From Liopterus haemorrhoidalis (lineage: Eukaryota > Arthropoda > Insecta > Coleoptera > Dytiscidae): DNA of 64,000 bases. The position numbers were made by a program, and so were the translations under genes. The stretch lies in contig OZ020618.1 of the NCBI GenBank assembly GCA_963971575.1, positions 29,626,540-29,690,539 on the forward strand, written 5' to 3'. Shown in pieces: positions 1,371 through 57,903 of the stretch; the first letter of the stretch is position 1, and each line of letters starts with the position of its first letter. The notes beneath the pieces were generated by a model. The model was not told the DNA's origin, did no database searches, and saw only the letters and a list, made by a program, of their open reading frames with translations.

Positions 1371-2493
1371 ATGGTCAGAGTCCACTCACAATGGTGTGAA
1401 AATCATCCCGAGCTGGACTTCATGACGCAACTAAATCTGCGCGACCAAGTAGCACGCCTGCGACGCAGGATGAGGCGATCGAGACGAAGACAGTCGAGAA
1501 GGTTGTCCCAAATACCGGTACAGCCATCGACACCTGCAAGCCCACCAACGGGAGGTGGGCAGATAGCCACTGGGTCTTCCCCAGTTAATGCAGGAATAAC
1601 ATCCTCTTCACCGGAAAAAAATCTTCGTGAAGATTTTCTAGCCCTTCTCTCGCCTCATTCTGAACGCACCCGACTTGGACACAATAACTTCAAAGTTCGT
1701 GCTGATGACCTCACGCAACTTAATGAGCTTATTGACAAGCAAATTTCCCCTCAGAGTAGTCTCTGGGAAATCGACTGTGCTGTATACGCTGCAGCAGCTG
1801 TGCAGACGCCAAAGCGGGCTTTGGCCTCTAAGGCTTTTAACGGCAAACTGCGTATACAGCAATTAGAGAAGAATGACGCGTTCACGCCAGGAAGCTTCTC
1901 ATATTCAGTGTGCTATTGATGCTTTACGAAGTATTAAGCCGCTAAGTGTGAATACTAAGCGCATATTACATCAATTGCGCATAAAGCATCACACACTGAA
2001 TTTGTCCACTCTCTCTCTGCTAAAGCAGAAAGCGGTGGACAAATTGAGAGCGCTAGCCCTGGCAAGAAAGAACATGTTACGAGTCCACCCGGAGATAGAG
2101 AGATGCATTGGGCAACTTATGTCCCTCTGAAAGACACAATTTGTTGTCCCAAGTAGATCAACCGCAGTGTCGACAGAGTGGATACATTTCAAGCGTGGCG
2201 TTTTCCAGGGAGATTCCCTAAGCCCGCTACTATTTTGCATCTCACTTCTTCCTCTATCGATCGAGCTTAGGCGCGGCAGTGGCTACATGGCGGGTCTTCC
2301 GTTGAAGCGTAAGCACAAAATTACCCATCTCTTTTACATGGATGATTTGAAGCTCTACGCCTCGAACGAGAGGAATTTGCAGACCGCCTTAGATGCTGTT
2401 GCTGAGTACACTGCCGCGATAGGTATACAATTCGGGTTGGAAAAATGCGCTGTTTTTCATATATACAGAGGAAAAGGGGTTGGACAACGGTGA
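1371..2493 (+). pseudogene. R2-like non-LTR retrotransposon, 5' part (broken)
   Basis: Three frames are needed to read it. 1371-1919 begins with a basic region (RLRRRMRRSRRRQSRR) and continues into 1873-2130 by a shift near 1870. After a deletion, 2133-2493 gives reverse transcriptase palm motifs: RGVFQGDSLSPLLF and the catalytic FYMDDLKLY. The fingers and early palm of the RT are missing between about 2130 and 2165, so the copy is internally deleted. The upstream sequence abuts the foldback arm directly. No intact start or poly-A-bounded unit exists. The family assignment rests on the downstream zinc knuckle and endonuclease. Confidence 0.7.
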
Positions 2494-3740
2494 AGATGTT
2501 CAATTGGTTGATGGGAGCATTATAAAACATCTTAATGCCGAAGGGTCTTACACATTTCTTGGCATCAGTGAAAGGGGTGTCCAGGATGTCACTTTTATTA
2601 AGCAGGCCCTTCGCAGCAAGTATATGGCACGTCTGAGGCAGATATGGAGATCATGTCTGTCTGGCAAGAACAAGATCGCTGCCACAAACATGCTTGCTGT
2701 CCCATTAATTTCATACACTTTTGGTGTAATGAAATGGAATGTTGATGATCTTAAGGATCTCGACAGAAGAACCAGAAAGATCATGAACATCAACCGAAGT
2801 CTTCACCCGAAATCTTCTGTGCAGCACATTTACCTCCCTCGTCAAAATGAGAGTCGGGAATTACTTAATCTGGAGTGTTTACACGATCGACTCGTCCTGG
2901 TTACAGCTAACAGTATCCTCAGAAGTCAGGACCCACTATTACAATTCGTTAGTGAGGACGAATTTAGCGGCAAAGGGGCGTTTCTTTACCAGGCAGCGCG
3001 AAGAGCAGCAACGAGATTTAACCTGGCAGACTTGAGTCCCGCCAGGGAAAACGCTGGAGTACAACTCTCTCGTGAGGAGTACAACAGAGTTACCGGTTCG
3101 GTGGAACGAGGCGAGACAGACATGTTGACAAAAGAACACATGAGTAAAAGTATGCACTCTGTGTTCTTCAAACATATTTAAAGTCTAGAGTTGTCCACTG
3201 AACACACGTTCTCGTTTCTTAAGTCTGCTGGTTTGAGATCGGAAACAGAAGGTTTTGTGTTTGCGTGTCAGGATGGTGTTATAAATATTTTGGCGTACAG
3301 GGACCGCATATTCCAAATAGCGGAGTCCACACTCTGTACGTTGTGCCACCACCATTCTGAAACGATTATGCACATTCTGTCTGCTTGTCCATCTCTTGCA
3401 GCGTCGAGCTACGTGTCTCGACATAATGCTGCTCTCCGCCTGCCTCTACTATCATCTTAGACATGCCTATGGTATTGACCAAATACCGGTTATACCGTAC
3501 GTCCCTTCCGACATAGAATCGGTGGTGGAAAATTCCAAGTGCCGAATTTTTTGGAATTACTCCTTCCCCACCTCGAGGTTACTGACAGCCACTAAGCCGG
3601 ACATAACCCTTCTGGATATCTAGACCAAACAGATGTTTGTGATCGAATTCTCAAGTCCAGCTGAGAAGAATATCTCTCTCAAGGAGGAGGGAAAAGAGGT
3701 CCAAGTATATGGAACCGGTTTGACACGCGTTCATATGTGA
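2480..3740 (+). pseudogene. R2-like retrotransposon, 3' part: RT thumb, CCHC knuckle, restriction-like endonuclease
   Basis: 2480-3181 is a 233-aa frame continuing the RT (YTFLGI, then a thumb region with PLISYTFGVMKW). After another shift, 3191-3460 holds a Cys/His knuckle (CTLCHHH then HILSACP). 3396-3623 reads into KPDITLLD and stops at a TAG (3621). Past that stop the same frame gives FVIEFSSPAEKN followed by KEE. The D...E...K order of KPD, IEFS and KE is the restriction-like endonuclease signature of R2-clade elements, which cut their target before target-primed reverse transcription. At least four disruptions make this copy dead. The 3' end is probably in the A-rich tract at 3775-3830. 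Confidence 0.8.
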
Positions 3741-3839
3741 GTTGCAACGACTTATGACCTCACTCAAGAAATAATGAAAAAGATGAATAAAATATGATAA
3801 AATAGAATTTTATAATAATAAAATTTATAGAATATTGAA

Positions 3840-5160
3840 TAAACTCTGCTTGGTCTCACAAAATTGCAAGTAATTAATTACCTGGTTTTAAACAAACCTG
3901 ACTCTGGAGGGAAATCCAGATCAAAAATAGTTTTTTAACAAAATACAAGTTAGGTAATTAATATACGAATGTATATTTATTAAAAAATTGAACACAATGC
4001 AGGGGATCCTGAATCAAATATAATACTCACTGATTTTAGACGGTTTTATATTTTATAATAAAAAGACACATGAGCTTACCTCGATAGAAAAAATATTAAT
4101 TCGTACTTAATATAAGGAATGCATATTAACTAAAATTGCAGATTAATCAGGGGATACTGATGTGATAATATACTCTGAAAGTGGCGGTTTTTAACACTGT
4201 CAAAATAACTAAAACTCTAAAAGTTTCTGAAAGTTTAGTTAACTATAACCAAATAGTTAGAAAATTCACAAATTAATATTACACCTACATTTTTTATTCA
4301 TTTGTTAAAAAAATATATGTATCATATTTTTACATAAATAATTATATAATATTTTTACAAAATACATAATAATTTTTTTTGACAAGCATTATATTAACAC
4401 ATGCACAACACATTTACAACAGAAATACATTCATTCATAATAATACACGTTAAGGTCGAATGTACTACAAAGAGATTACCTATACATTGGACTCCAATGA
4501 TTGGAGTCTTAAACCAGATTGTTGTATTGTTTTACTGTTATCATTAGATTTACATACGATTTAGCATTATGATATACAGTTAAGTATAGTTTTGCGGAAG
4601 TTTGCGTAACTCATGCTAAATATATCAATAGATCTATCTTTAACAAAAAAACTGTTATATAATGTTGTCATTTTATACAGTGGACTATTTCTGCAGTGTT
4701 CTGTGCTAGTTCGTTTGCAAATAAAGAGTGTATCTCTAATTCTAAAGTCACGAGATAGTACACTTATAGATATATTAAATAATGCCAAATAACAGTCGAT
4801 GAAATTATAAAATAACTAGATTAGCCCTTTGACAACAAATAGTATTATACAATATACTATGAATATGAATCGCAACAATTGCATTTCTAAGCAAAGTTAA
4901 TCTTTCAAAAAACTTATTCTAGTTGCCCACTTGGAAAATTATAATAATATTGGATAAAATAATATGAATACCAGATAGGTAGCTGAGAAATTTTTCTAGC
5001 AGTGTCAGTAGTTATTTTTTCCTTAAAACTCTGTACCAGAAAAGACTTGTAATAGTATTTTAAAAATCCATTCGTGTATTTTTTGAAACTCTTGTGTTGC
5101 GATTAATTAACATATCACTTAACAACTATTATTATTTTCCGGAATCTTTCAAACGAAAAC
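3840..5160. other. AT-rich intergenic stretch, nothing recognised
   Basis: No homology-like frame, TIR pair or tandem repeat seen. A 73-codon minus-strand frame at 4567-4788 has low-complexity coding character and no recognisable motif. Confidence 0.5.
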
Positions 5161-5339
5161 ATGGCGCATTATATGTCAATATACACTTCGGTAAGCTTCG
5201 GAATATTTCGTTACATTTCGGAATCTTGCTTCAAATTTGTATTAGACGACAGCATTGACGTCATATACATAATTATATACTACCTCATCGGACGACAGGC
5301 ACGCACGCACACAGCCACCCAGGGACACACGTTGGTGTA

Positions 5340-5947
5340 TTATATTATAGATTATATTCGTAGATTCTTAGAGAATAAATTTGCAAAATATTGTTCATAT
5401 CGGTCAAAGCATATAGGAGTATCTAGAGTTTCTTGTTTATACCTACGAAACCCTAGACAATTCTATATGTAATTATATTTGTAGATTCTTAGAGAATAAA
5501 TCTGCAAAATATTGTTCATATCGGGCAAAGCATATAGGAGTATCTAGAGTTTCTTGTTTATGACTACGAAACCCTAGACATTTTTATATGTAATTATATT
5601 CATAGATTTTTAGAAAATAAGTCTGCAAAATATTGTTCATATCAGTCAAAGGATATAGGAGTGTCTGGAGTTTCTTGCTTATGCCTACGAAACCCTAGAC
5701 CATTTCTATATGTAATTTTATCCGCAGTTTTTTAGAGAATAAATCTGCAAAATATTGTTCATATCGGTCAAAGCATATAGGAGTGTCCAGAGTTTCTTGT
5801 TTATACCTACAAAACCCTAGACATTTCTATATGTTATTATGTTCGTAGATTCTTAGGGAATAAATTTGCAAAATATTGTTCATATCGGTCAAAGCATATA
5901 GGAGTATCTAGAGTTTCTTGTTTATGTCTACGAAATCCTAAACCAAA
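5340..5947 (+). repeat. 121-bp satellite array, left block
   Basis: Five units. Each carries GAATAAATCTGCAAAATATT, CATATCGGTCAAAGCATATA and TACGAAACCCTAGACA. The period measured between successive TAGATTCTT motifs (5362, 5482, 5603) is 121 bp. Divergence is about 5-10 percent by eye. Confidence 0.9.
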
Positions 5948-6853
5948 CAGGGGTCGGTAAACCGAGGCTCACGAGCCGCATGCGGCTCTTTAAGGATATT
6001 CGTGTGGCTAAGTAAGTTAAGCTACACATCTAACATACTAAAACCTTCTAAGGAAGTGCAAACTAATTTTTCTCATTAATTTAAATCCATACTTATTACA
6101 TGTTGTGATTTATTCATGTATATTTATGCACTACTTGTTAAATGATGCTAAAAGATCAGCTGTGGCCACCACAGGACCGACCGCCATCATAAAGTACTTG
6201 TATAAAATACATTCTAGCAGCAGAGTAGAAAAAACTTGGCCTAATATTTTGTAACAGAGATATTATTTATCATGACCATGGAAACGTTACATATAAGTAT
6301 GAAAAAATAGATAATTAGAAAAAAAATCAAAATTTTCAATTTTTGGTTCGTTTTATCAAAAAATGTCTCAAATAAAAGTTGTTAGTTATTGCTTTTGTAG
6401 CTACTTTTGTAAAATAAATTTTTTCGAAATATTTTTCTTATGTTAAATATTCGCAAAAATCTTAAAATCGACACGAGTAAACTCCCATTTTTAGTCAACC
6501 GATTTTTATTAAAAGTTGATCCATTTGTGCCATTGATGTCAAGAGCTTACAAATGAAGTTTCAAAAAATTCTTCTAGACGAATATGCTCTGCACGTGTAT
6601 ACAGACAGACGGACAGACAGACCGACAGACATCATGCTAAAAATAGTCAAAACGTTATGTAGAGACCTCAATTCGTGGAGATCCATCAAAATCTCGAAAT
6701 GTCATAATCAGTATGATCACAATACCTCCCTTATATATGTTGGTGGTAGGTAAAACGTCATGTATTAAAACAAAATTATGGCTCTTTAAAATGTTTCCAG
6801 ATGCCCTAAAGGGTGAATTTGGCTCTTTAGCCTCTAAAGTTTGCCGACCCCTG
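5948..6853 (+). mobile_element. Non-autonomous hAT-like element inside the satellite
   Basis: Ends are CAGGGGTCGGTAAAC and its mirror ...GTTTGCCGACCCCTG, a typical hAT terminus of CAGGGG type. Subterminal GGCTCTTTA motifs are also mirrored. The element splits a satellite unit. The flanks TCCTAAAC (5936-5943) and CCCTAGAC (6854-6861) look like a diverged 8-bp duplication, with four extra bases (CAAA) on the left. The interior is mostly a copy of repeat family R. Confidence 0.75.
6157..6757 (+). repeat. Dispersed repeat family R, uninterrupted copy
   Basis: Begins CAGCTGTGGCCACCACAGGA, which folds on itself (CTGTGG/CCACAG). It contains a CAGACAGACGGACAGACAGA tract and ends CCTCCCTTATATATGTTGGT followed by a GGTAGGTAAAA variant. 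ACCGACCGCCA near the start is mirrored by the terminal TGGCGGTCGGT of other copies. Other copies lie at 17804, 44728, 44910, 46792 and 52015. No protein. The class is unknown. This copy and 17804 show the empty TATATA site used by later insertions. Confidence 0.8.
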
Positions 6854-6989
6854 CCCTAGACATTTCTATATGTAATTATACTCTTAGGTTCTTAGAAAAT
6901 AAATCTGCAAAATATTGTTTATATCAGTCAAAGCATATAAGAGTGTCTAGAGTTTCTTTTTTATGTATACGAAAACCTAGACATTTTTA

Positions 6990-7049
<60 letters not shown>

Positions 7050-7830
7050 AACTAAGAGCAGAAGTCATAAGACTTGTATAGCTCTAAATACTGTACAATT
7101 ATGAGTATGTGTATATGTTATTTTTTCCGCAGTTTCTTAGAGAATAAATCTGTAAAATATTTTTCATATCGATCATAGAATATAGGAATGTCTAGAGTTT
7201 CTTGTTTATGCCTACAAAACCCTAGACATTTCTATACGTAATTATATTTGTAGATCCTTAGAGAATAAATATACAAAATATTGTTCATATCGGTCAAAGG
7301 ACATGGGGGTGTCTAGAGTTACTTGTTTATGCCTACGAAACCCTAGATATTTCTATATGTGGTTATATTTGTAAATTCTTACAGAATAAATCTGCAAAAT
7401 ATTGTTCATATCGGTCAAAGGATATGGGGGTGTCTAGAGTTATTTGTTTATGCCTGCGAAACCCTAGATATTTGTATATGTGGTTATATTCGTAAATTCT
7501 TACAGAATAAATCTGCAAAATATTGTTCATATCGGTCAAAGCATATAGGTGTTTTAAGAGTTTTTCGTTTTTGCCTACGAAACCCTAGACATTTCTGTAC
7601 GTAATTATATTCGTAAATTTTTAGAGAATAAATATGGAAAATATTGTTCATATCGGTCAAAGGATATAGGAGAGTTTAGAGTTAAGAGTTTAGAGTTTAT
7701 GCCTACGAAACTCTAGACATTTAAATACATTATTTTATTCGCACTTTCTTCGAGAAGAAATCCGCAAATATTATTCATGTCGGTTATAGTATGTAGCGGT
7801 GTCTAAAATTTCTTGTTTGTCTCCGAAATC
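6854..7830 (+). repeat. 121-bp satellite array, right block
   Basis: About eight further units of the same satellite, more divergent toward the right end, where the last unit (7730-7830) is only partly recognisable. An (ATT)n microsatellite interrupts one unit. Confidence 0.85.
6987..7049 (+). repeat. (ATT)n microsatellite
   Basis: About 21 uninterrupted ATT units inside a satellite monomer. The poly-isoleucine frame across it is not a gene. Confidence 0.95.
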
Positions 7831-7913
7831 AGACGCATCATCCCGAATTATTCCGACCGTACGAACAGACATAAGCTTTTTATATATTAGGGATGTTTCA
7901 TTTTGTAATGCGT

Positions 7914-30099: not shown

Positions 30100-30653
30100 T
30101 TAGTTAACAACATCATTATCAGGTGAGTTGACCCAGTGTGGCCAAGTTTTCATATCTGCATAAAGCATATCTCCTGGACTTTGTGTTAGTGACAGTTGTC
30201 TATGAGCTAATAGCTTATAATCTTTAACAATGTAACCTTTGTCAACACCCAACTCTATCAATTTTTTCGCAGCCAATATCTGTTTAGGAGACGGAATAAT
30301 CTTATTGAATGTTCCAATAAATGCTATACCAATAGCTTTCGAGTTGTATCCGTAAGCAAATGCTCCTTCACTAGTCCAGCCTCGACCTTCATAAGCTAAA
30401 CCATCTCCACCAACCAGGAAGTTGAAACCTATATCCCACCAACCATTACTGTCTACGTGGAAAGATTGAATATAACGAACTTTTAGTACACATGCAGTTT
30501 GAACTGAACAGTTATCTGTTGCTGAGTGGATTATCACTACGTAAGGTACCGGGGTTTTCAGGGGATTTGCTGGTTGCACAGGTGGTTGGGCAACCCATTG
30601 AAATCTTGATATTATTTTTAGTTTTGGTTCTAAAGTGACATTTGCCCCAGAAT
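30100..30653 (-). CDS. PGRP-domain terminal exon, copy 1 (non-catalytic)
   Basis: Peptidoglycan recognition protein exon encoding a whole PGRP/amidase-2 domain. It starts after a 3' splice site (TTTAATTTCAG|AT) in a codon split 1/2, so at least one upstream exon is required and was not found. The upstream-looking ATG (at 30681) is in the intron. In exon numbering, His43 (VVIIHSATDNC) and His151 (LLAHRQLS) occupy zinc-ligand positions. The catalytic Tyr is Phe77 (DIGFNF) and the ligand Cys is Ser159 (TQSPGD), so no amidase activity is expected. Cys49/Cys55 form the conserved disulfide pair. PGRP-LC/LE-type recognition receptors share these features. The DAP-contact Arg of that group appears replaced by Ser (YNSKA). 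The 183-aa frame ends NDVVN, made by a 22-bp insertion relative to copy 2. Confidence 0.85.
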
Positions 30654-30870
30654 CTGAAATTAAAATAACATTAAAAAACATGGTACATGAAAAATTTTAT
30701 AGAATATCTATGAAGTGACCGTATAAAATTTTTGACACAAAATAGATTAATTTCTGAGGTACCGTAAAACGGAGTGAACTTGACCAGTTTGTAGGTTCAA
30801 ATTATCATATCTCTGTGAACGTTAATAATTGTTTTATTTACTCGTATTTCATACTAGTATTTCTTTTAAT

Positions 30871-31448
30871 TTATTTATTACCATCTTGTAATAGTACTCC
30901 TACAACATCATTATCAGGTGAGTTGACCCAGTGTGGCCAAGTTTTCATATCTGCATAAAGCATATCTCCTGGACTTTGTGTTGGTGACAGTTGTCTATGA
31001 GCTAATAGCTTATAATCTTTAGCAATGTAACCTTTGTCAACACCCAACTCTATCAATTTTTTCGCAGCCAATATCTGTTTAGGAGACGGCATAATCTTAT
31101 TGAATGTTCCAATAAATGCTATACCAATAGCTTTCGAGTTGTATCCGTAAGCAAATGCTCCTTCACTAGTCCAGCCTCGACCTTCATAAGCTAAACCATC
31201 TCCACCAACCAGGAAGTTGAAACCTATATCCCACCAACCATTACTGTCTACGTGGAAAGATTGAATATAACGAACTTTTAGTACACATGCAGTTTGAACT
31301 GAACAGTTATCTGTTGCTGAGTGGAGTATCACTACGTAAGGTACCGGGGTTTTCAGGGAATTTGCTGATTGCACAGGTGGTTGCGCAACCCACTGAAATC
31401 GTGATATTATTCTCAGTTTTGGTTCTAAAGTGACATTTGCCCCAGGAT
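30871..31448 (-). CDS. PGRP-domain terminal exon, copy 2 (non-catalytic)
   Basis: A tandem duplicate of copy 1: same 3' splice site, same phase, about 8 amino-acid differences over 183, and 191 codons ending GVLLQDGNK. Residues at the active-site positions are identical to copy 1 (His, Phe for Tyr, His, Ser for Cys), so it is also predicted to bind and not cleave peptidoglycan. The duplicated block includes about 200 bp of upstream intron (GACCGTATAAAATTTTTGAC through TTACTCGTATTTCATACTAG). Two complete domain exons with stops and matching phase fit mutually exclusive 3' exons of one receptor gene, as in fly PGRP-LC, or two tandem genes. Upstream shared exons would lie above 31660 and were not identified. 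Confidence 0.85.
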
Positions 31449-32046
31449 CTGAAATTAAAATAACATTAAAAAACATGATACATGAAAAATTTTATAGCAT
31501 ATCTATGAAGTGACCGTATAAAATTTTTGACACAAAATAGATTAATTTCTGAGGTACCGTAAAGCGGGGTGAACTTGACCTGTTTGTAGGTTCAAATTAT
31601 CATATATTTGTGAACGTTAATAATTGTTTTATTTACTCGTATTTCATACTAGAACATAGGTATTGAGGTCCACTATCAATAACTATAATTTTTTTATTTT
31701 TGGGCCGTTAGAAATGTTATTTTAAAAATAAAAAACTAGTGTGGTGTAGTTCACCCCGGCCGGGGGGAATATGTTGCTTGCTAAACAACTCGCATAAAGG
31801 AGTGAATTTGACCACAGAAAAATATTTTAACTAGAGCGCGGATTTTAAACATTTTGCTTATTGGCAGTACTTAAGCAGAACAAATTTTCGTTGAGATCTC
31901 AACGTTTCACAAAAAATTTTAACGTTTAACACCATTTTTATTTTGCTTATTTTCCTTTTTTTGTAGATTTAAGCTTATTTTTGCTTATTTGATGTTTATT
32001 GTGTTCATTATTTTAATGCTTATTTTTAAATTTTGTTTATATGATA

Positions 32047-35877: not shown

Positions 35878-35883
35878 CACCCG
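35878..35883 (+). repeat. Target-site duplication CACCCG, left copy
   Basis: Identical to 41789-41794, immediately outside the inverted repeats. Confidence 0.9.
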
Positions 35884-35963
35884 AGTAGATAAGGTAAGCT
35901 ACCTCTGTGACACTCGATGACCACGGTCATCCGAAGCGGCCATAAACAAGGGGGTCTCCCTTG
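35884..35963 (+). repeat. Polinton left terminal inverted repeat
   Basis: Matches the complement of 41709-41788 at 77 of 80 positions. It contains the palindrome GATGACCACGGTCATC (7-bp arms) and CAAGGGGGTCTCCCTTG (6-bp arms). An inward-facing ATG sits in the first palindrome. Confidence 0.92.
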
Positions 35964-36024
35964 GTCTTTATACTTCTTGCAAGGTCACGCTGAAGAAAGA
36001 GATAACGAAACTCAACTTGGCTAA
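35917..36024 (+). CDS. Left TIR-initiated leader frame (35 aa)
   Basis: Starts at the ATG inside the left inverted repeat. Its first 15 codons are encoded by the repeat, so they are the same as the start of the minus-strand gene at the other end (MTTVIRSGHKQGGLP). It then diverges and ends at TAA. Too short to be convincing alone. It may be a first exon of a spliced plus-strand gene ending at 37426, since several GT donors follow, but no donor could be chosen. Confidence 0.35.
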   Translation: MTTVIRSGHKQGGLPWSLYFLQGHAEERDNETQLG

Positions 36025-36289
36025 TTGAATTTGCAGACAGGCGTGCAGCAGTGTTCTTTCAAGGTCATCGCTGTAGCTGAAGACGCCGTTGAGAGATGAC
36101 ATCACCACAGCCACCTGAAGATCTTCTTCAAGGAGACGTGTTGGGCCTAGGCAGATGTGTTGCAGGCTAGCCTAAATTTTAGGCGTAAAACAGGAAAAAA
36201 AATCCTAAAATTTTGTTTTCGTCTTTACCTAATAATCCTCGAGATACCTCACCCTACAGGGTGCGATTATTTTCTGCGGAAAAAATGTC
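36025..36289. other. Polinton left internal region, no gene recognised
   Basis: GC richer than the host flanks. Short open stretches only, without a recognised motif. Confidence 0.4.
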
Positions 36290-36366
36290 GAGGGATACGG
36301 CGGGAATCGAACCCGGGCTCTTTTGATTTCTAGCTGTCGTTTCTGACCGTTCAGCCATGCGAACAG
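36290..36366 (-). tRNA. tRNA-Ser-like relic
   Basis: The minus strand has a box A-like TGGCTGAACGG, a D-arm palindrome CTGA-ACGG-TCAG, CTAGAAA where the AGA anticodon loop of tRNA-Ser would lie, and a perfect box B GGTTCGATTCC with a mostly paired T stem. The acceptor strands (GTTCGCA and CGTATCC) do not pair, the anticodon stem is poor and the long serine variable arm is absent. Not a working tRNA; a degenerate gene or tRNA-derived SINE head carried inside the Polinton. Confidence 0.45.
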
Positions 36367-36829
36367 ATAACGCAACGTTGAAAATAAGAGTTGATAAGAA
36401 GCTGACAGACCGGCGAGCGTTATCTGCTTGAGGTCACATCGTCCCGATAAATTCTATTTTAAGATTTATCTCGGATTATCTGACTTACATTTTTAAATTT
36501 CATTTTTATTTTAATAAATGATTTTAATAACATTAATTATCTGTTATCCTCACGTGTTAAAAATGTGATTTAATAAATTATTATTTTTACACTTACTATA
36601 ATATATAAATACTTATCTGTCTCAGCGATTTAACCGAGATGTTTTGCATGTGCCTGAAAATTTATCAGAATAAAATTGATACAAAATCATTTTTCTTGTA
36701 AAATTTATTAGTCAGCTTAATTAAATTGATACATTAACCATTACTAATTATATTTTTCACTTATCGTTTCATATATATATAGATCTGAATTTCAGAAGTG
36801 TTATCATAGTTACAACATTAAGTTATTTT

Positions 36830-37125
36830 ATTATCGTTAGTGATGGTGTTACCAAAATTGTATTTGTTTAGGTAAGTTATTTTATTAATGGTGACACCAC
36901 TATTAACATTTGTTTAGGTGAGTTATTTTATTGTCGTTGGTGATGGTGTTACCAAAGGTGTTTTCTAAAATTGCATTGTTTAGGTGAGTGTTACCGTCAT
37001 CAACATTTGTTTAGGTGAGTTATTTAATTATCGTTGGTGATGGTGTTACCAAAGGTGTTTTTCAATATTGCATTTGTTTAGGTGAGTGTTACCACCATCA
37101 ACATTTGTTTAGGTGAGTGAGACCG
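36830..37125 (+). repeat. Tandem repeat with fused splice-acceptor/donor motifs
   Basis: Irregular units containing TTGGTGATGGTGTTACCAAA and CAACATTTGTTTAGGTGAGT. Six times a pyrimidine-rich TTTAG is followed directly by a consensus donor GTGAGT or GTAAGT (junctions before 36872, 36918, 36984, 37015, 37082 and 37113). A strong acceptor follows at 37185. Confidence 0.8.
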
Positions 37126-37185
37126 CCAATATAAGTTTTTTTTTTTTTAATTTATTTATTATTTTTTTTTTTTTTACTATTTTAG

Positions 37186-37426
37186 GACCACGCTCGACAC
37201 CGAGGAGGAGTTTGCTTTGTTAGAGAAAGCTTATCGGAGATTCAACTTCGAGTTGAGGGATGAGGAGGGAGATTCACGTCCACTCTTACTACCCTCAACA
37301 TCGTTGGTGATGGCGTCAACATCAACGGCGGCGCCAGCAGCACCAGTAGAAAGAATCTCCGATTCGGACGAGGAGGAAACAGACCAACCACCACTGAAGC
37401 GTGTGAAACGTTTTTTGGAATTTTGA
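37186..37426 (+). CDS. Polinton plus-strand exon: acidic protein with C-terminal basic patch
   Basis: The frame is open from a strong 3' splice site (T-run, CTATTTTAG|G at 37185) to TGA and lacks a credible ATG near its start, so it is probably a last exon of about 79 codons: TTLDTEEEFALLEKAYRRFN, then an Ala/Ser/Thr-Pro linker, an acidic casein-kinase-like SDSDEEET and a nuclear-localisation-like PPLKRVKR. No family recognised. It lies convergent to the minus-strand virion genes. The fused acceptor/donor repeats just upstream suggest its transcript is spliced. Confidence 0.5.
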
Positions 37427-37559
37427 TAAATAAATAAAAATCATATATAATAATATTAAAATTACATGTTTTATTATTTTGAAATACATTTTCCAATATA
37501 TTTTCCCATATATATACCAACTATGTTTTCAGCAATGATATAGTTAAAAGATTATTTTA

Positions 37560-38087
37560 TTATTTTTTAAAATACTTGCTCCAATTATATAAATAAAATA
37601 CATTTGCTTTAGCGCAATTTAAATCATTGCTGAAAACATGTGTTCTACAGTGGTGAGATTTTAATACGTTTTTCAATGTGTTAAATAATATACATCCTTC
37701 ATCTTCGAAATCATGTATTTCGTTATCGATAAACCGAGCCAACCATCTTTTCTTGTTCTGACCCTTTACGAAGACAGGAGCATCGACATCGATATTCCCT
37801 CGGATGAATGAAGACAGCTCCTCCGAAAGAAGAACGTCTTCGGAGTCGTTGTGATCGATCCAAGACATGCCGTGAACTTTATCACATAGAAAATTTAAAT
37901 GTCTGACGGTCACGTTGTTAAAATCTTTCATCATGGTTAGCGGGGTCCTAACGAATCTGTGATGAAGGTGGTCATTTGTAGTGTTCAGGATAGCGATTTC
38001 TTTACAGATGAAATCATCACAATGACTGAAGTTGAACCCCTGCACGTCAATCACATACATTTTCATAGTTTTTTTAATTGCAAACAA
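37560..38087 (-). CDS. Polinton-associated protein of unknown function (175 aa)
   Basis: An intact frame after the capsid gene. It opens MFAIKKTMKMYVIDVQGFNF, then has ICKEIAIL, FVKGQNKKRWLARF and IHDFEDEGC. I recognise this pattern from uncharacterised insect proteins that travel with Polinton capsid genes, but not its function. The hydrophobic-strand-Asp start (YVIDVQG), the EIAIL strand and the helix KKRWLARF suggest an RNase H-like alpha/beta fold, possibly an exonuclease relative; that is inference only. Translation probably starts at the first Met or at Met8 or Met10. It may encode a virion or replication accessory protein. Confidence 0.6.
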   Translation of the reverse strand: MFAIKKTMKMYVIDVQGFNFSHCDDFICKEIAILNTTNDHLHHRFVRTPLTMMKDFNNVTVRHLNFLCDKVHGMSWIDHNDSEDVLLSEELSSFIRGNIDVDAPVFVKGQNKKRWLARFIDNEIHDFEDEGCILFNTLKNVLKSHHCRTHVFSNDLNCAKANVFYLYNWSKYFKK

Positions 38088-38121
38088 GTTAACTCTTCGA
38101 ATTTATGAAGTGTACTGACTG

Positions 38122-39308
38122 TTAGATTACATTTACAGAACTTCTAAGAGGGTTATATGTCGCAAAACGATCATGTAAGATAAGACAGAACGCGCTTGTA
38201 TTGGCTGTCACATTTTTGCTAAATTCAAATTCCAACCTGATGTCTACACTTCCGGTTTTGAGCGTTTCGTTTTGGTGACTGCAGTCGATAACAGTCAGCG
38301 GCGCCTTCTCTATAAACCGTTTGAGGTTCAGACATAGTTCACTCGATTCTTTCTGGTAGTAAGATTTTTGGAAACGAACGTACATATCGTACAGACTCGC
38401 CCACTGTCTTTTATCGAAATTAAAATTTAAATTATCGTAGGGATAGACGCTGGAATTCAAATAAAGTTTAATGTTGGTTAAATTACAATGATCGAATGCG
38501 CTCATGTTCGCGGTGGCTTTATTTTTTCTATATGTTTGAAACGCGACTATGACCCAACGTGGTTTCTCTAGCTGGTTAGAAGTTTTGATGTTCCAAGTGT
38601 GTTGCGTAGTTTGCTGTAAAGATGGATACTCATGTATTTCCCAACCTCTGTGGGGCATATCCAAGTCTGCACCTTTATCGATGAAGTTGATCAGCTGGAG
38701 TTTCGTCTTATCGGACACTTGAATTCGATTTTTGGTTTTTCAGTCACCTTTGTAGTCAGCACGGAATTTAAATCTGATGAACTTCTGAGTAAAACGAGTT
38801 CTTGTCGGGTGTTGATGATTATCTTTTTGAAATCTTCAAAGTATCCCATGACCATGCACAGCGGAATGCAGACGTTGAAATTGCCATGTACATCTACCAC
38901 GTTAGGTTTTTCGAGATGGTTCCAACCGGTGTTTTCATAATAAACAGCGTTTTCAGGGCTGAAATATAGATAGCCCTTGATTGTACAAGTAACACCTGGA
39001 TTTCTCACACGATCTATGACGATTCCTCCCATTTCATAGCGGATCTCTTCGAACAGATGCAACAAACCGTTATTGATAAATTCCAGACTGGAGCTAGCGG
39101 CATCCTTATCATCAAGCAATTTTCCTGTTATGTTAATGGAGCTGTTACATGGTAAAGTGTAACTATCTTGTGTCTGGATAGGAATGCGAATCTCATCCGA
39201 GTTATTTAAACTGGTATTATTGTATGGAGGGTGATTGTGTTCAGATATATTAGTAATGTGGTTATCTTCAACGATGTGTTCACCGATATTCAATATGTGA
39301 AAACTCAT
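38122..39308 (-). pseudogene. Polinton major capsid protein (double jelly-roll type), frameshifted
   Basis: Two frames in succession. The N-terminal part (39308 to 38691) has DEIRIPI, FEEIRYEMGG, IDRVRNPGVTCTIKGYL and INTRQEL. The C-terminal part (38718 to 38122) has WEIHEYPSLQQTTQHTW, KPRWVIVAFQTYRKN, FDHCNLTNIKLYLNS and VIDCSHQNE. This order is characteristic of the Polinton/adintovirus hexon-like major capsid protein that forms the icosahedral shell. Each half spans about 200 aa, so the total is about 400 aa. The frame changes in A-rich runs at 38729-38740, consistent with a one-base slip that is either genuine decay or an assembly error. Otherwise the coding sequence is intact. Confidence 0.8.
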
Positions 39309-39436
39309 TGTTTCTACCGTTATCCTTTGCGTTTAATGAACGTTACACAATTGCACTTTAAGTATATCCGAAATTTTCTTATGCCCGATTGAACGTTCAA
39401 TTTTAATCTGAACCAGAACTCTTCGATTATTCTCAT

Positions 39437-39607
39437 TCAGTCGATCACCTCGAGACTGAGAGAACGTAAAAATTCTTTGTTTCTTCTTGTTAACAGTATC
39501 AGATCTTTCTTTCGAATGATTTTCTTTCTTGCCTTTTTAGATTTTATACTACTGTTGAAGATCACTGAAGCTGAAGGCACTAATGAAAAATTGTATCTTA
39601 ATACCAT
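39437..39607 (-). CDS. Polinton small basic protein (56 aa)
   Basis: Its ATG lies 2 nt after the stop of the penton-like gene, a viral-style tight junction. It is Lys/Arg-rich (SIKSKKARKKIIRKKD, LLTRRNKEFLRSL). Short K/R-rich proteins containing L-T-x-x-N-x-x-F-L-x-S-L are familiar companions of insect Polinton capsid genes, but no function is known to me. It could bind DNA or be a short structural peptide. The remaining 39308-39436 is a noncoding gap before the capsid gene. Confidence 0.45.
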   Translation of the reverse strand: MVLRYNFSLVPSASVIFNSSIKSKKARKKIIRKKDLILLTRRNKEFLRSLSLEVID

Positions 39608-39609
39608 GA

Positions 39610-40204
39610 TTAAATATCTTTTTTTAAATGCAAACCCACTGTGACCAGTTGATTGTTGAAATTAATCAAATTTCCATCTTGATCTGTTATTTGTACTATA
39701 ACTTCGGTGATATATCGTGTATTGATTGGTAGATAAATAACATTGGGTCGGGTTTCTTCTATTTTGTAACCTGGGTTAACTTTTAGGTTGAAAGAATACA
39801 ATATATGAACGGGTATACCGTTTTTGTAAGAATTTGTAACTATGTTACAATTTACACATATCATATGAATTTTGGTGATGTTGACCGGATGCTCTGATGT
39901 ATGTTTTTTATTCGCTCTCAGTTTGCGCGGTTTGAAACCGAAAAGTTCACCGATGGAATTGGATTTGTGTTGCACATATTTTTCTATGTCTGCAATTTCA
40001 TAAGTGCCCGTAGGAAGCGTTATTTCATGGTCTCCGATGTGAAATTTGTTATTAGTCGAATCATTTCACATTCGGAATCATGTTATAACTTGTAAAATTG
40101 AGAAAACCGATGGTGTATGTTTCATATTCTTTAATTTCGATGGGTCTGGGGAAGGTCGATCTTAACACAGAACCAAACTCACTCATATTAATTAATTGAG
40201 ACAT
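39610..40204 (-). pseudogene. Polinton penton-like minor capsid protein, frameshifted
   Basis: The first frame starts at ATG 40204 (MSQLINMSEFGSVLR) and hits TGA at 40061-40063. The second frame takes over at about that point (NKFHIGDHEITLPTG) and runs to TAA at 39610. C-terminal motifs VNPGYKIEETRPNVIYLP and IVQITDQDGNLI match the minor capsid (single jelly-roll, vertex) protein found beside the Polinton major capsid gene. A one-base difference in an A3 run near 40064-40067 explains the break. The remainder is uninterrupted, so decay is recent or the base call is wrong. It lies upstream of the small basic gene with 2-nt spacing. Confidence 0.75.
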
Positions 40205-40270
40205 GGATATGATTGCAGGATCGAGATTCAAACACAAATAAATGAAAAGAACTAATACTGAATTATTTAT

Positions 40271-40597
40271 TTATTTATTACATAAAAATTTTAAACATAA
40301 ATGGCCGCAAATAAAAGTATTATAATTTTGGTATGAACAATAATTATATTTAATTTCGGGGGAACCATTAGATTTGAAATAATTCAATGCTTCCAGAGGC
40401 GGCTGCAAGTTACCAAAACTATCGAAATATACCACTCTGTTCCTCGATTTGATGTATGCCGTCCAATGGGTCCCGGGTCCTTTCTGATCATCTAAATTTA
40501 TGATTCCTAGTTCATTACTGCGTATCTTTTTAGGAAGTTTATTTCTCATGAATACTCCTCTAAAATCTGGTATATTTAGAAGTTTTACATATTTCAT
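40271..40597 (-). CDS. Polinton adenain-like cysteine protease
   Basis: A C5-type maturation protease. The His of GTHWTAY, the acidic residue of YFDSFG, the Gln of SYQNYN and the Cys of ICGHLCLKFL are in the adenovirus protease order (His-Asp/Glu-Gln-Cys), so the active site is intact. In adenoviruses and Polintons it cleaves precursor virion proteins. 108 aa from Met at 40597 is short. The same frame stays open upstream for about 60 codons with plausible homology (LPERPLTNFDL) but without an ATG, overlapping the pX-like gene in another frame. The start may therefore be lost, non-AUG, or reached by frameshifting. Confidence 0.8.
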   Translation of the reverse strand: MKYVKLLNIPDFRGVFMRNKLPKKIRSNELGIINLDDQKGPGTHWTAYIKSRNRVVYFDSFGNLQPPLEALNYFKSNGSPEIKYNYCSYQNYNTFICGHLCLKFLCNK

Positions 40598-40635
40598 AAG
40601 GTCGAAGTTTGTAAGCGGTCTCTCTGGTAAAGTTT

Positions 40636-41145
40636 TCAGTATAGCCTTTTTGTCATCGACCGATCCTTTCCTAAAAAAATACCAAGTCCTTTTTTGTATT
40701 GACGCAGGAAGACCCCCTTGCCGATCGCTATGGATTCCATAGTGCGGTTGTGACGTTGCGCTTCATGCAGGTTTCTCCTGGCCGCGCTGGCATCGTTAAC
40801 AGCTTTCGCTATTCCGGCCGCGCCGCCGCTGAGAGCTCGGAGGGCGCTGAGACCCGCAAATATCGGAATCAGAGGAAGGATGCCACCGGTTTTGGGTATG
40901 GTCACTACACGAGGTTTCGACGTCGACTTGATCGTCTTTTCAGCACCGATATATTTCATAGCCAGACGTGCAGCATCACGCAGATTATCGGGTTTGGAAC
41001 GGCGGATAAGCCTATCTAAAGCTTTGACAGCCCTCTGAAACCCTGAACAATTTCTCTTTCGACAACTCGACTTGTTCGTACTTTTCTTCCTGCTTTTCGC
41101 TCGACAACTCGACTTATTTTTACTCTTCTTACTTTTTGCAACCAT
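40636..41145 (-). CDS. Polinton pX/pVI-like core or membrane-active minor virion protein
   Basis: 169 aa. The N-terminal 45 residues are Lys/Arg/Ser/Cys-rich (KKSKNKSSCRAKSRKK) and suited to DNA binding. The central hydrophobic Gly/Ala block IPKTGGILPLIPIFAGLSAL with GGAAGIAKAVND resembles the adenovirus pX/pVI-like proteins described for adintoviruses. The C-terminus has repeated G-K-G-(V/L)-x-L-type motifs (GKGVFL, KKGLGIFLGK). Intact frame. Probably a protease substrate within the virion. The assignment rests on motif style and gene position, not on an alignment. Confidence 0.7.
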   Translation of the reverse strand: MVAKSKKSKNKSSCRAKSRKKSTNKSSCRKRNCSGFQRAVKALDRLIRRSKPDNLRDAARLAMKYIGAEKTIKSTSKPRVVTIPKTGGILPLIPIFAGLSALRALSGGAAGIAKAVNDASAARRNLHEAQRHNRTMESIAIGKGVFLRQYKKGLGIFLGKDRSMTKRLY

Positions 41146-41188
41146 CTTTACATACTAAACAAATTTTTACTATGCTTTGATATTTATA

Positions 41189-41755
41189 TTACACACGTTG
41201 TATCTTACTAGAGTTATGAGCATCATCATCATCATCATCATTATCGTCTTCAAATTTACGTTTCTTTGTCTCAGTACTGTGATATATCAACGGTTCTTCC
41301 TCAGTTAATTCATCAGGCTTAAACTTTTTAGAGCCACTTGCAGATATAAATAATTCATCATCATCATTTAATTTTCTTTTTCTAATAGTTTTGGATGCTT
41401 TTTGTCTATTGTGATATATTAATGGTTCGTCCTCGGTTAATTCATCACCACTTTTATCATTTAATTTTCTTTTTCTGTTAGTTTTAGGTGCTACTTTTTT
41501 TCTTTTACAAACTTTTTTTTCTTCGTTTTCTTCAAATACATTTCCATCAACTTCCATTTTTTCTTCTTTGCTAATATCAGTCAATTGTTTTCCATTCATT
41601 TTATTTTCTTTATCCATGTATGTAAATTGTTTTCGTTTTTTATTCTTAACCATCACATCTTTTTTAACTCGCTTTGAAGATGGTGGTTTAACTCGCTTTG
41701 AAGATAAGCAAGGGAGACCCCCTTGCTTATGGCCGCTTCGGATGACCGTGGTCAT
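41189..41755 (-). CDS. Polinton right-end Lys-rich protein with duplicated acidic motif
   Basis: Intact 188-aa frame whose ATG (41755) and first 15 codons lie inside the right terminal repeat. It is very rich in Lys/Arg and Asp/Glu. An internal duplication gives RKRKLND-x-DELTEDEPLIYH and later KPDELTEEEPLIYH, each with a basic KRK cluster, and there is a poly-Asp tract near the end. No family recognised. Composition suggests a nuclear, nucleic-acid- or histone-associated protein. It is first in the minus-strand gene series, so its promoter must lie in or outside the terminal repeat. Confidence 0.6.
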   Translation of the reverse strand: MTTVIRSGHKQGGLPCLSSKRVKPPSSKRVKKDVMVKNKKRKQFTYMDKENKMNGKQLTDISKEEKMEVDGNVFEENEEKKVCKRKKVAPKTNRKRKLNDKSGDELTEDEPLIYHNRQKASKTIRKRKLNDDDELFISASGSKKFKPDELTEEEPLIYHSTETKKRKFEDDNDDDDDDAHNSSKIQRV

Positions 41756-41788
41756 CGAGTGTCACAGAGGTAGCTTACATTATCTATT
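41709..41788 (-). repeat. Polinton right terminal inverted repeat
   Basis: Complement of the left repeat, with 3 differences in 80 bp. Confidence 0.92.
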
Positions 41789-41794
41789 CACCCG
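41789..41794 (+). repeat. Target-site duplication CACCCG, right copy
   Basis: Identical to 35878-35883. Confidence 0.9.
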
Positions 41795-45370: not shown

Positions 45371-46768
45371 CAGTGAATTTATTCTTTTACGCAACATGTA
45401 CTATGTCATTACCATGGATATAGTTTTTGACAGCAATATAAATCGTGTTCATTTTCATTTGCAACATTACTAGCAAAATCAAAATATTTGATTGAAAATA
45501 CAAATTAAAAAAAAATAATAATAATAATAAATAAATAACTAATAAAAACTTATAATAAATTTTCAAAAGTTTCTCCGTTTAATTGCATACAAAATGTTAA
45601 GCGATCATAAAAATGATTCAAAACATTCAGCAATTGCTCTTGAGATATATTGTTGGATGCTTAAACAATTATGTCTTGCAGTTCAGCAACATCCCTAAGT
45701 TCTTCATTATATACTTTGGCCTTTAAATATCCCCAATAAAAAAAAATCATTGGGTGCCAAATCCGGAGATCTCGCTGGCCAATTCATCGACCCTCCTCTT
45801 CCAATCCAGCTTTTTGGGAAAGTTCTATGTAAATATTCTAGAATAATGGACTTATGCGCCATCATGTTGAAACCATACTTGTCCATTAATATTCAGGTTT
45901 TGCAACGCAGGTAATATTTGATTTTGCAAAAGGGCTAGATATTTTGCGACATTAAGGTTACCGTCAATAAAAAAAGGCCCTATAATATTGGTTCCTATTA
46001 TCCCTGCCCAAACATTTAATTTTTGCGGATTTTGAGTTCGGGAGGAATGAAACAAATGTAAATTTTCTCGACTCCAGTACCTAAAATTTTGTCTGTGCAC
46101 TTCACCATTTAGAGTAAACGTTGCTTCGTCTGTAAATAAAATTCTTTGAAGCATTATTGGGTCGGAATTAATTTTTTCAAACAATTCAAAACAAAAATCC
46201 ATACGTACTGCTGCGTCCCTTTCTACCAATTCTTGATGATTTTGAAATTTGTATGATCGAAACTTTTCTTTTTTTAAGAAATTAAAAACAGATCCAGTAC
46301 TGACACCAACGGTTTGTGCAATTGATCTTAAAGTATTTTGATTGTTTTCTTCCACTTGTAATAATATTTCCAACTGCTTCTCTTCTGTAAGCACGTGGGA
46401 TGTTGTTCTTTTTTTATTATGTTTTGACTTAAGACATCCTTCGCGATGAAATTTATTAACTAGTCTTGAAATTGTAGAGGGATTTGGTATTGGCCGATCT
46501 GGATAAGTTGCACTAAATACAGCAAAAACTTCTCTTAAACTCATTTGGGAATTATACCAAGTTACCTCATTCATCATTATTTCAGTTCATCATTATTTTT
46601 TCTTCATCTGTATATACATGTTGATTAATTTTTAAATCAGTAATGAGCGAAAGTATACACACTAATTGTCTATGTTGCAAATGAAAATGAACACGATTTA
46701 TATTGCTGTCAAAAACTGTATCCATGGTACTGACATAGTACATGTTGCATAAAAGACTAAATTCACTG
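45371..46768 (-). mobile_element. Mariner-like element A, 1.4 kb, about 100-bp TIRs
   Basis: Ends CAGTGAATTTATTCTTTTAC and, mirrored, CAGTGAATTTAGTCTTTTAT. Terminal inverted repeats extend about 100 bp (shared ACAGCAATATAAATCGTGTT). Flanked by TA on both sides. Encodes a broken transposase on the minus strand. Confidence 0.9.
45545..46577 (-). pseudogene. Tc1/mariner-superfamily transposase A, frameshifted
   Basis: The main frame 46577-45852 (241 aa) begins MMNEVTWYNSQMSLREVFAV, a helix-turn-helix region, then IAQTVGVSTGSVFNFLKKEK (second HTH), ILFTDEATFTLNGEVHRQNF (first catalytic Asp in FTDE), KLNVWAGIIG and WFQHDGA (second Asp). At 45852 the frame shifts. WIGRGGSMNWPARSPDLAPN (third catalytic Asp region) is read in another frame, then a further shift gives YWGYLKAKVYNEELRD. 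The catalytic triad remains recognisable, but at least two shifts and a stop inactivate the gene. Confidence 0.85.
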
Positions 46769-47212
46769 TATATGTTGGCGGTCGGTAAAAATTCAAATTT
46801 TTTTCGTTTTATCAAAAAATGTCTGAAACAAAAGTTGTTAGTAATTGCTTTTATAGCAACTTTCGTTAAATAAATTTTTGCGAAATATTTTTCTGTTGTT
46901 AAATATTCGCAAAAATCTTAAAATCTACACGGGTAAACTCCCATTTTTAGTCAACCGATTTTTACCAAAAGTTGATAAATTCGTGCCATTGATGTCAAGA
47001 GCTTAAATATGAAGTTTCATAAAAATCCTTTTAGCCCAATTTGCTCTGCACGTGTACACAGACAGACAGACGGGCGGACGGACGGACGGACAGACAGACC
47101 GACAGACATCATGCTAAAAATAGTCAAAACGTTATGTAAGGACCTCAATTCGTGGAGATCCATCGAAATCTCGAAATGTCAAAATCGGTATGATCACAAT
47201 ACCTCCCTTATA

Positions 47213-48518
47213 CAAGGTGTCTCAAAAGAAATTTTATATTTATTTAGCTTACTGCGTGAACGCAACGTATTCGAGGGGCGCGGGGGTTATGTCAATCGGT
47301 AGCCTGGCTCTTGGGAATTCAGTCGCTATGGAGCGTTTCTCGGGAGCAGACCGCGCGTTATGCGTGCGAGAGTTTTACAAAAACGGTAATTCGGCGACTG
47401 TAGCGCGTAGAAAATTCTGCAGTATTAGAGGTTTTCGCCACTTAAATGATGCGCCAAGCATTCCTCTCAATCGACATTGGGTTAAAAAGTTTGAAGAGAC
47501 TGGTACAACGCTGGATAAATCAAAATCCCGGCGACCTAGTTCATCAAGAACGGTAGAAAACGTGGAGAATGTTAATCAGTCTGTTCGTGACGACCCGAAC
47601 TTTTCAATTCGGAAGCGCGCAAGTGCTTTAAATGTGCATAGATCATCATTACATCGCATTATGCACAAAGACCTAAAGCTGCACCCCTACAAAATTCAAT
47701 TGGTGCAAGAATTAAAGCTCCAAGATGCCAGTCAGAGGCTTAATTTCGTAAATCAGGTGATTGAGCGATTTTCAACGTTTTCCAACATTTTGTTTTCGGA
47801 TGAAGCTCATTTTCATCTTAATGGCCACGTAAATAAGCAGATCTGCTGCTACTGGAGTGCAACGAATCCGAAACGCAAACATCAGAAACCCCTACATTCG
47901 CCTAAAGTGACCGTATGGGCTGTGATGTCGGCGCGAGGAATTATCGGCCCTTACTTTTTTGAAGACAAAAGGAGGCGTGCAGTTACAGTGAATTCAGAGC
48001 GTTATGTGGAGATGTTAGACAACTTCTTGGTACCTGAACTGCAAAACTGGCTATAACCAAAGAACATGGTTCCAACAGGACGGAGCAACTTCACACACGT
48101 CCAATATGTCTCTGCCACCTGTTCGTGAAATTTTCTCAGGCAAATTGATCTCCCGGAGAGGTGACATAAATTGGCCTCCACGCAGTCCAGATTTAACCCC
48201 TATGGACTTTTTCCTATGGGGTTATCTTAAATATAAAGTTTACGCCAATAAACCGACTTCACTGGCGCATTTGAAAGAAAATATCCGTCACGAAATGGCA
48301 GCCATCCCTGAGTCCACCTGCCGAGACGTCATAAGTAATTTTACTGTTCGATTAAACGAGTGCCGAGAACGCGAGGGTCTACATTTGGACGATATTATTT
48401 TTAAGAAATAAATCCCCAAAAAGTGTATTTTAATAATTAATAAACATTTTTTCTATATACGACTTACTTTTTTTTTTAATCGATCCACTAAATATAAAAT
48501 TTCTTTTGAAACACTTTG
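47213..48518 (+). mobile_element. Mariner-like element B, 1306 bp
   Basis: TIR CAAGGTGTCTCAAAAGAAAT on the left mirrors CAAAGTGTTTCAAAAGAAAT on the right (about 29 bp with ATTTTATATTTA). TA duplication on both sides. Structurally complete. Confidence 0.95.
47328..48411 (+). pseudogene. Tc1/mariner-superfamily transposase B, single frame break
   Basis: Nearly full length. The best start is MERFSGADRALCVREFYKNG (47328). HTH regions follow (NGNSATVARRKFC, then RKRASALNVHRSSLHRIM), then the first catalytic Asp in ILFSDEAHFHLNGHVNKQ, VTVWAVMSARGIIGPYFF, the second Asp in the QQDGA context (48075) and the third in WPPRSPDLTPMDFFLWGYLK. One shift occurs near 48050 (stop TAA at 48054), just before the second Asp. 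The rest stays open to FKK at 48411. It is more recent than copy A and belongs to a different mariner lineage by sequence and TIRs. Confidence 0.9.
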
Positions 48519-57264: not shown

Positions 57265-57315
57265 CTGCTACTGCTACTGCTACTGTTAAGCTACTGTTAA
57301 GCTACTGTCCAACTA

Positions 57316-57903
57316 ATGAAGAATAATTTCCCTAGAACTCTCATTAATACAATTTTTTATAATAATTCTTATAATAATACTAATAACAATATAACATCTA
57401 ATATTAATTCTAAAAACATATATTTTAAATTTCCCTACATAGATAAAATCTCACTTAACATTGCTGAACTATTTAAACCCCTTAACATACAACTAGCATT
57501 CTACAATCTTAAAACGGTTAAAGAATTATATTCCCAATTAAAAGACCCGACACCTAAATTTAATACATCTTCAGTTGTCTACCACATCCCTTGCGCAGGG
57601 TGTGATTTGGGATATATTGGACAAACCAAACAATATCTACAAAAAAGAATTTACCAACATCCAAATAGTTGCCAAGAAAAATATAGAAACAAAAAAGAAA
57701 ATACTGCTCTTAGCACGCATTTCTTTGAAACCAATCATAAATTTAATTTTGAAGAAACCAAAATCCTAGATAGAGTTAAAAATTTAAATAAAAGATTAAT
57801 AAGCGAAAGCATAAACATCCAACGAGATAATAAAACGATAAACTTTAAAACCGATTGTAATACGATGAACGCCATCTATTGTAATATCTTTAATAACTTT
57901 TAA
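57316..57903 (+). pseudogene. Penelope-like element: C-terminal linker and GIY-YIG endonuclease
   Basis: 195 codons from MKNNFPRTLINTIF, a low-complexity Asn-rich linker. The GIY-YIG domain follows: VVYHIPCAGCDLGYIGQTKQ (the -IP-C..C-..YIG motif), LQKRIYQHPNSC (R of the active site), ALSTHFFETNHKFNFEETKI and LDR with KRLISESINIQ (catalytic Glu). The Cys pair and the H...E-T-x-H-x-F block are typical of Penelope endonucleases, which follow the RT. The open frame is uninterrupted, but the RT domain that should precede it is missing (inverted arm instead), so the element is 5'-truncated. Confidence 0.85.

Follow-up and report, generated by a model that had tools for sequence, protein, structure and literature searches.

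Introduction

Integrase-mediated insertion is established Polinton biology, and non-autonomous derivatives of DNA transposons in general keep their termini while their mobility genes are deleted. Passages of two studies bear on Polinton size and gene content. According to those of Krupovic et al. (2014; PMC4028283), Polinton-like elements shorter than 10 kb were deemed incomplete and excluded from the set; of 72 Polintons, 46 had a full-length capsid gene and 13 a split one, and nine elements that had no capsid genes were also without protease and ATPase. The corresponding passages on adintoviruses describe three of 13.3-14.6 kb, and for the first of them they give PolB, an integrase, a capsid protein, a protease and FtsK (PMC8363768). 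Here we analyze a much shorter element of this kind, of ~5.9 kb, at positions 35884-41788 of a 64,000-nt stretch (hereafter the window) from the beetle Liopterus haemorrhoidalis (Coleoptera, Dytiscidae; assembly GCA_963971575.1, contig OZ020618.1). A preliminary description of this stretch proposed a mobile unit of virion genes that would need a helper, with a single internally deleted copy as its fallback. Comparison with the host genome strongly favors the fallback: the element is very probably a relic, decayed and internally deleted, from a Polinton-type provirus family of 16 kb resident in the same genome.

The Element Belongs to a 16-kb Family

The element is a real bounded insertion. The same 6 bp, CACCCG, stand on either side of it (35878-35883 and 41789-41794), and 77 of the 80 outermost positions are identical between its two ends (repeat arms 35883-35963 and 41709-41789), both as previously described. 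The inverted repeats start with AG. What the preliminary description took for an 80-bp repeat is a remnant: the left arm (35884-36497, plus strand) matches both arms of 16-kb kin and is therefore the complete family repeat of ~613 bp, of which the right arm (41709-41788, minus strand) retains 80 bp.

Used as a query against the host genome, the terminal repeat gave 40 matches (the best 40 of 41 candidates). Close matches, at 90-100% identity, number 22 and lie at 14 places as eight pairs and six single arms. The pair in the window is spaced 5.9 kb apart, three pairs ~16.0 kb, and the others ~16.9, 18, 30 and 73 kb. The other 13 places were taken whole or in part, the 73-kb place by its two ends. 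At six of the 13 no module is wholly missing (C10, C5, C3 at 52.2 Mb, C16 at 22.6 Mb, C1 and C11 at 31.45 Mb); the remaining seven comprise truncated and rearranged copies, a lone arm and places fetched in part. The ATPase was found at 12 and the integrase at 11 of these 13 places, one of which is a lone arm, and none has the virion-only appearance of the window copy.

The family plan was taken from the copy read most closely, and the order of its blocks is identical across the other fullest copies. From the first side it comprises an arm of ~613 bp, an ORF of 244 aa, a pair of overlapping ORFs (898 and 381 aa; L009:2914-5610 and 5538-6683), a plus-strand ORF and an ORF of 175 aa. Onward from there follow the capsid, penton, protease and pVI genes, a gene with phospholipase A2-like and Lys-rich parts, the ATPase, an ORF of 357 aa, an rve integrase with a chromo domain, and the second arm. 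In kin, Pfam recognizes the Pox_A32-type ATPase (2.5e-5) and the rve integrase (3.3e-14) with its chromo domain. The composite gene of the virion block (L010:3289-4272) has an N-terminal part resembling phospholipase A2 (PF08398, 1.5e-12), a domain also present in parvovirus capsids, and a Lys-rich C-terminal part. The two overlapping ORFs bear motifs of the DNA polymerase B type, the basis for calling them polymerase-like. Neither is recognized by Pfam or PHROGs, and a PDB sequence search with the longer ORF found no polymerase, which cautions against profile-based negatives.

Across the virion block the window copy and the six fullest kin are about 95-99% identical in DNA. Clear 6-bp duplications flank the kin copies on C10, C5, C3 and C1, with none clear on C16 and C11 (six pairs inspected). 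Within the copies on C10, C5 and C3 (L009-L014) the two repeats align over 612-626 bp at identities of 98.9%, 99.3% and 99.8%, and some insertions of the family therefore look recent. Inserted DNA of several kb divides the capsid gene of the copy at C11:31445898-31476385 (L023-L026).

Two Large Gaps Separate the Window Copy from Its Kin

Aligned to the family plan, the window copy is continuous apart from two large gaps, some short gaps and a shorter tandem array. With the left gap of ~5.6 kb (L009 about 1720-7339) the 244-aa ORF and the polymerase-like ORFs are gone; a poly-T tract adjoins the junction, at 37176-37183. Within the missing block, about 147 bp resemble window positions 36662-36806 at 90%, a repeat of the kin that lies away from the junction. 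The right gap of ~4.1 kb (L010 about 3788-7876) takes out the phospholipase A2-like part, the ATPase, the 357-aa ORF, the integrase and the inner part of the terminal repeat, and its junction, at 41685-41709, contains a short duplicated filler. It is likely that two internal deletions removed these blocks.

Both junctions, placed by the kin alignment, were examined by 24-mers among the fetched loci. At the right junction, 0 of 32 occur in any other fetched locus. At the left junction, 5 of 22 occur in two other loci, and all five start at 37176 at the least, to the right of the junction; those spanning it occur in no other fetched locus. Control 24-mers are present in kin at 60/60 and 43/48 around the right junction and at 56/56 and 26/50 around the left, the 26/50 falling in the variable tandem array. 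These data, together with the full-plan kin, support the fallback of the preliminary description. Kin with matching termini, named there as the place to look, do carry integrase and ATPase (by Pfam) and a polymerase-like gene (by motifs), but not all are full-length (6 of 13).

A short element within a repetitive family might also be produced by the assembly itself, as a collapsed 16-kb copy. This we regard as very improbable: the copy has its own substitutions, short deletions and a distinct target duplication, and the filler at the right junction would not be expected from plain collapse.

Broken Virion Genes

Read from its right end, the minus strand of the element holds first a Lys-rich and a pVI-like ORF, then an adenain-like protease and a penton-like gene, and, beyond a small basic ORF, the capsid gene and the 175-aa ORF. 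The Pfam scan took in every stop-to-stop ORF of the element down to a length of 45 aa (42 in total, four of them in start-codon-trimmed form). Nothing rose above the curated cut-offs except PF21738, the double-jelly-roll major capsid protein, which is found in both pieces (8.4e-74 and 3.5e-29) of a broken gene at 38122-39308. The penton-like gene, also broken (39610-40204), the protease ORF (40271-40597) and the pVI/pX-like ORF (40636-41145) are presumptive labels, given from motifs, resemblance and position in the kin and with no database confirmation; the protease-like ORF has a sub-threshold Pfam match to Peptidase_C48 (0.041). PDB sequence searches with the protease, the penton piece and the capsid profile returned zero matches. 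Thus the capsid of the preliminary description is confirmed by Pfam and its other virion labels stand on motifs and position, while its capsid and penton genes prove to be broken.

The same scan found a retrovirus-type integrase in none of the 42 ORFs and no packaging ATPase, and the same library detects the integrase and Pox_A32 in kin. Since Pfam misses the polymerase-like ORFs of kin, its negative is valid for integrase and ATPase only; for PolB it proves nothing by itself, and what speaks here is that the corresponding kin block is missing. The earlier statement that polymerase, integrase and ATPase are lacking holds on these two separate grounds.

The other genes also find their counterparts in kin. 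The 175-aa ORF (37560-38087, minus strand, from the ORF list) is present there too and had zero homologs at 1e-3 among 16 candidates. By kin comparison, 37186-37426 on the plus strand is the 3' remainder of a longer kin ORF (144 aa stop to stop, L009:7158-7592), and 41189-41755 on the minus strand is the C-terminal Lys-rich part of the composite gene, its N-terminal phospholipase A2-like part deleted. The Lys-rich ORF starts inside the terminal repeat because the deletion fused the gene tail to the repeat; at the left end, a short frame likewise opens within the repeat. AlphaFold models built without an alignment had a pLDDT of 28.7 for the 175-aa ORF and 39.4 for the penton piece, too low for use.

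The tandem array at 36821-37118 (plus strand), longer in kin, consists of ~97-bp units with six AG/GTRAG motifs, written AG|GTRAG, each of which can be read as a 3' and as a 5' splice site. Splicing of a small plus-strand gene through these repeats was considered and dropped, the corresponding kin ORF being simply longer. A stretch near 36296-36370 on the minus strand, with a B box-like sequence of the sort seen in tRNA-derived elements, was likewise dropped; ARAGORN called no gene there and Rfam gave no match even at E 1.

The capsid gene has lost 31 bp near 38721: of ten kin alignments across this site, seven have the 31 extra bp and one has a gap of 16; the other two come from a single copy that is interrupted there. 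Near 39964 the penton gene has lost 123 bp, a stretch kept in 11 of the 11 loci aligned on both flanks, and near 40060 its frame is shifted. At 2765 sites where kin agree, with indels and rows below 70% of the piece length omitted, the window copy has 14 private substitutions, 13 nonsynonymous and one synonymous, distributed 8, 4 and 2 over the codon positions and creating no stops. Variation among kin is also nearly even over codon positions (39, 24 and 30), which gives the whole family the look of insertions in decay. With its capsid and penton broken, this copy would therefore make no virion of its own.

A Relic Copy or a Mobile Short Form

Within the family, the history of the copy would begin with insertion by the family's own retrovirus-type integrase, which presumably left the 6-bp duplication. 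Loss of the ~5.6-kb polymerase-like block and the ~4.1-kb ATPase-integrase block, DNA whose absence is seen against kin, may then have followed; the poly-T at the left junction and the filler at the right suggest end joining or replication slippage as the route. That both deletions came after insertion is a supposition.

Several observations weigh against this reading. Neither the target duplication nor the outermost end on either side is damaged, leaving room for a genome already deleted and then inserted in trans, and the losses coincide neatly with the non-virion blocks. The junction 24-mers were compared with the fetched loci and not genome-wide. The label of the polymerase comes from motifs. 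Given the gap of 16 in one kin copy, part of the 31-bp capsid loss may not be private, and one further kin copy is interrupted at that very spot. The even variation among kin means that the drift test fails to set the window copy apart. Finally, eight further places with the capsid gene, at 85-96% identity, lie outside the examined set.

These eight emerged from a genome search with the capsid gene, which gave 41 rows from the best 40 of 106 candidates: 24 long rows (85-100% identity) at 20 places, and one fragment of 100 bp. Twelve of the 20 fall within the 14 close-repeat places. The others are on C16 near 22.94, 29.58, 32.98, 34.23 and 39.23 Mb, on C2 at 26.97-26.98 Mb, on C7 at 31.31 Mb and on C1 at 49.39 Mb.

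The intact ends and duplication, along with integrase-bearing relatives in the same genome, would also suit a history in which the element was still replicating when the two deletions arose; its shortened genome would then have been copied, inserted once by the proteins of a full-length relative and left to decay. We consider this unlikely; only a single such copy is seen among the 14 close-repeat places, and the truncated and rearranged kin show that resident copies commonly lose parts. Its more specific form, a defective-interfering Polinton whose virion-gene-only genome full-length relatives would copy and integrate in trans, caught here as a complete insertion, seems to us a shade less probable again.

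Virion-only, satellite-like Polintons maintained as a class of their own would account for the gene content of the window copy. In its favor, the relevant part of a survey mentions genomes with adenovirus-class virion proteins and no recognizable PolB or integrase (PMC11071296); that is also the nearest statement found among open-access papers, and the titles and abstract openings listed name no virion-only or multipartite Polinton class. Such a class is nevertheless extremely improbable here. The same reduced structure is seen at one of 14 close-repeat places (a count to which the eight additional capsid-gene places do not belong), no second copy with these junctions is present among the fetched loci, neither the capsid nor the penton gene is whole, and the missing genes sit in kin at matching places. 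The helper-needing unit of the preliminary description is likewise not supported. Seen without the host genome, the copy resembled a complete satellite; with the host genome, it becomes a plain deletion derivative. One candidate for a new class of mobile element is thereby removed, and a satellite reading is not needed. As a side result, the beetle genome is found to hold a 16-kb Polinton-type family with some recent-looking copies.

Relatives of the Capsid and Neighboring Features

Searches with the C-terminal half of the capsid protein found 25 proteins, among them relatives in beetles and a wasp. A 347-aa beetle relative, used as the query in turn, matched 1068 proteins at E <=1e-3, and among the matches listed (120 of the 1068) is the hexon of Bos-associated insect adintovirus 2. 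A tree of 129 rows puts unnamed sequences nearest to the window capsid, inside a group of 27. The same group includes named sequences from leaf beetles, seed beetles, longhorns and pollen beetles. Scans of IMG/VR by protein or alignment returned zero relatives, and the terminal-repeat pattern was likewise unmatched there.

Elsewhere in the window, two tandem, near-identical ORFs on the minus strand (30100-31491) carry an Amidase_2 domain and are probably peptidoglycan recognition proteins. Remains of other mobile elements, comprising reverse transcriptase, transposase-like ORFs and a GIY-YIG ORF, lie at 2131-2493, 45852-46586, 47124-48411 and 57301-57903.

Comparison with Known Systems

The closest described systems are the insect Polintons/Mavericks (adintoviruses, Eupolintoviridae), with which the window copy shares the double-jelly-roll capsid, the 6-bp duplication, inverted repeats starting with AG and the virion gene set. 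Its 16-kb kin extend this likeness to an rve integrase with a chromo domain and a Pox_A32-type ATPase. The window copy differs in being without the integrase, ATPase and polymerase-like block, in a right repeat of 80 bp against ~613 bp, and in its broken capsid and penton genes. Compared with the incomplete Polintons below 10 kb, as passages of the literature present them, it differs in keeping both termini and in having full-length kin identified. Like the non-autonomous derivatives of DNA transposons it retains its termini and has its mobility genes deleted; unlike them it gives no sign of multiplication, no other copy among the fetched loci having these junctions.

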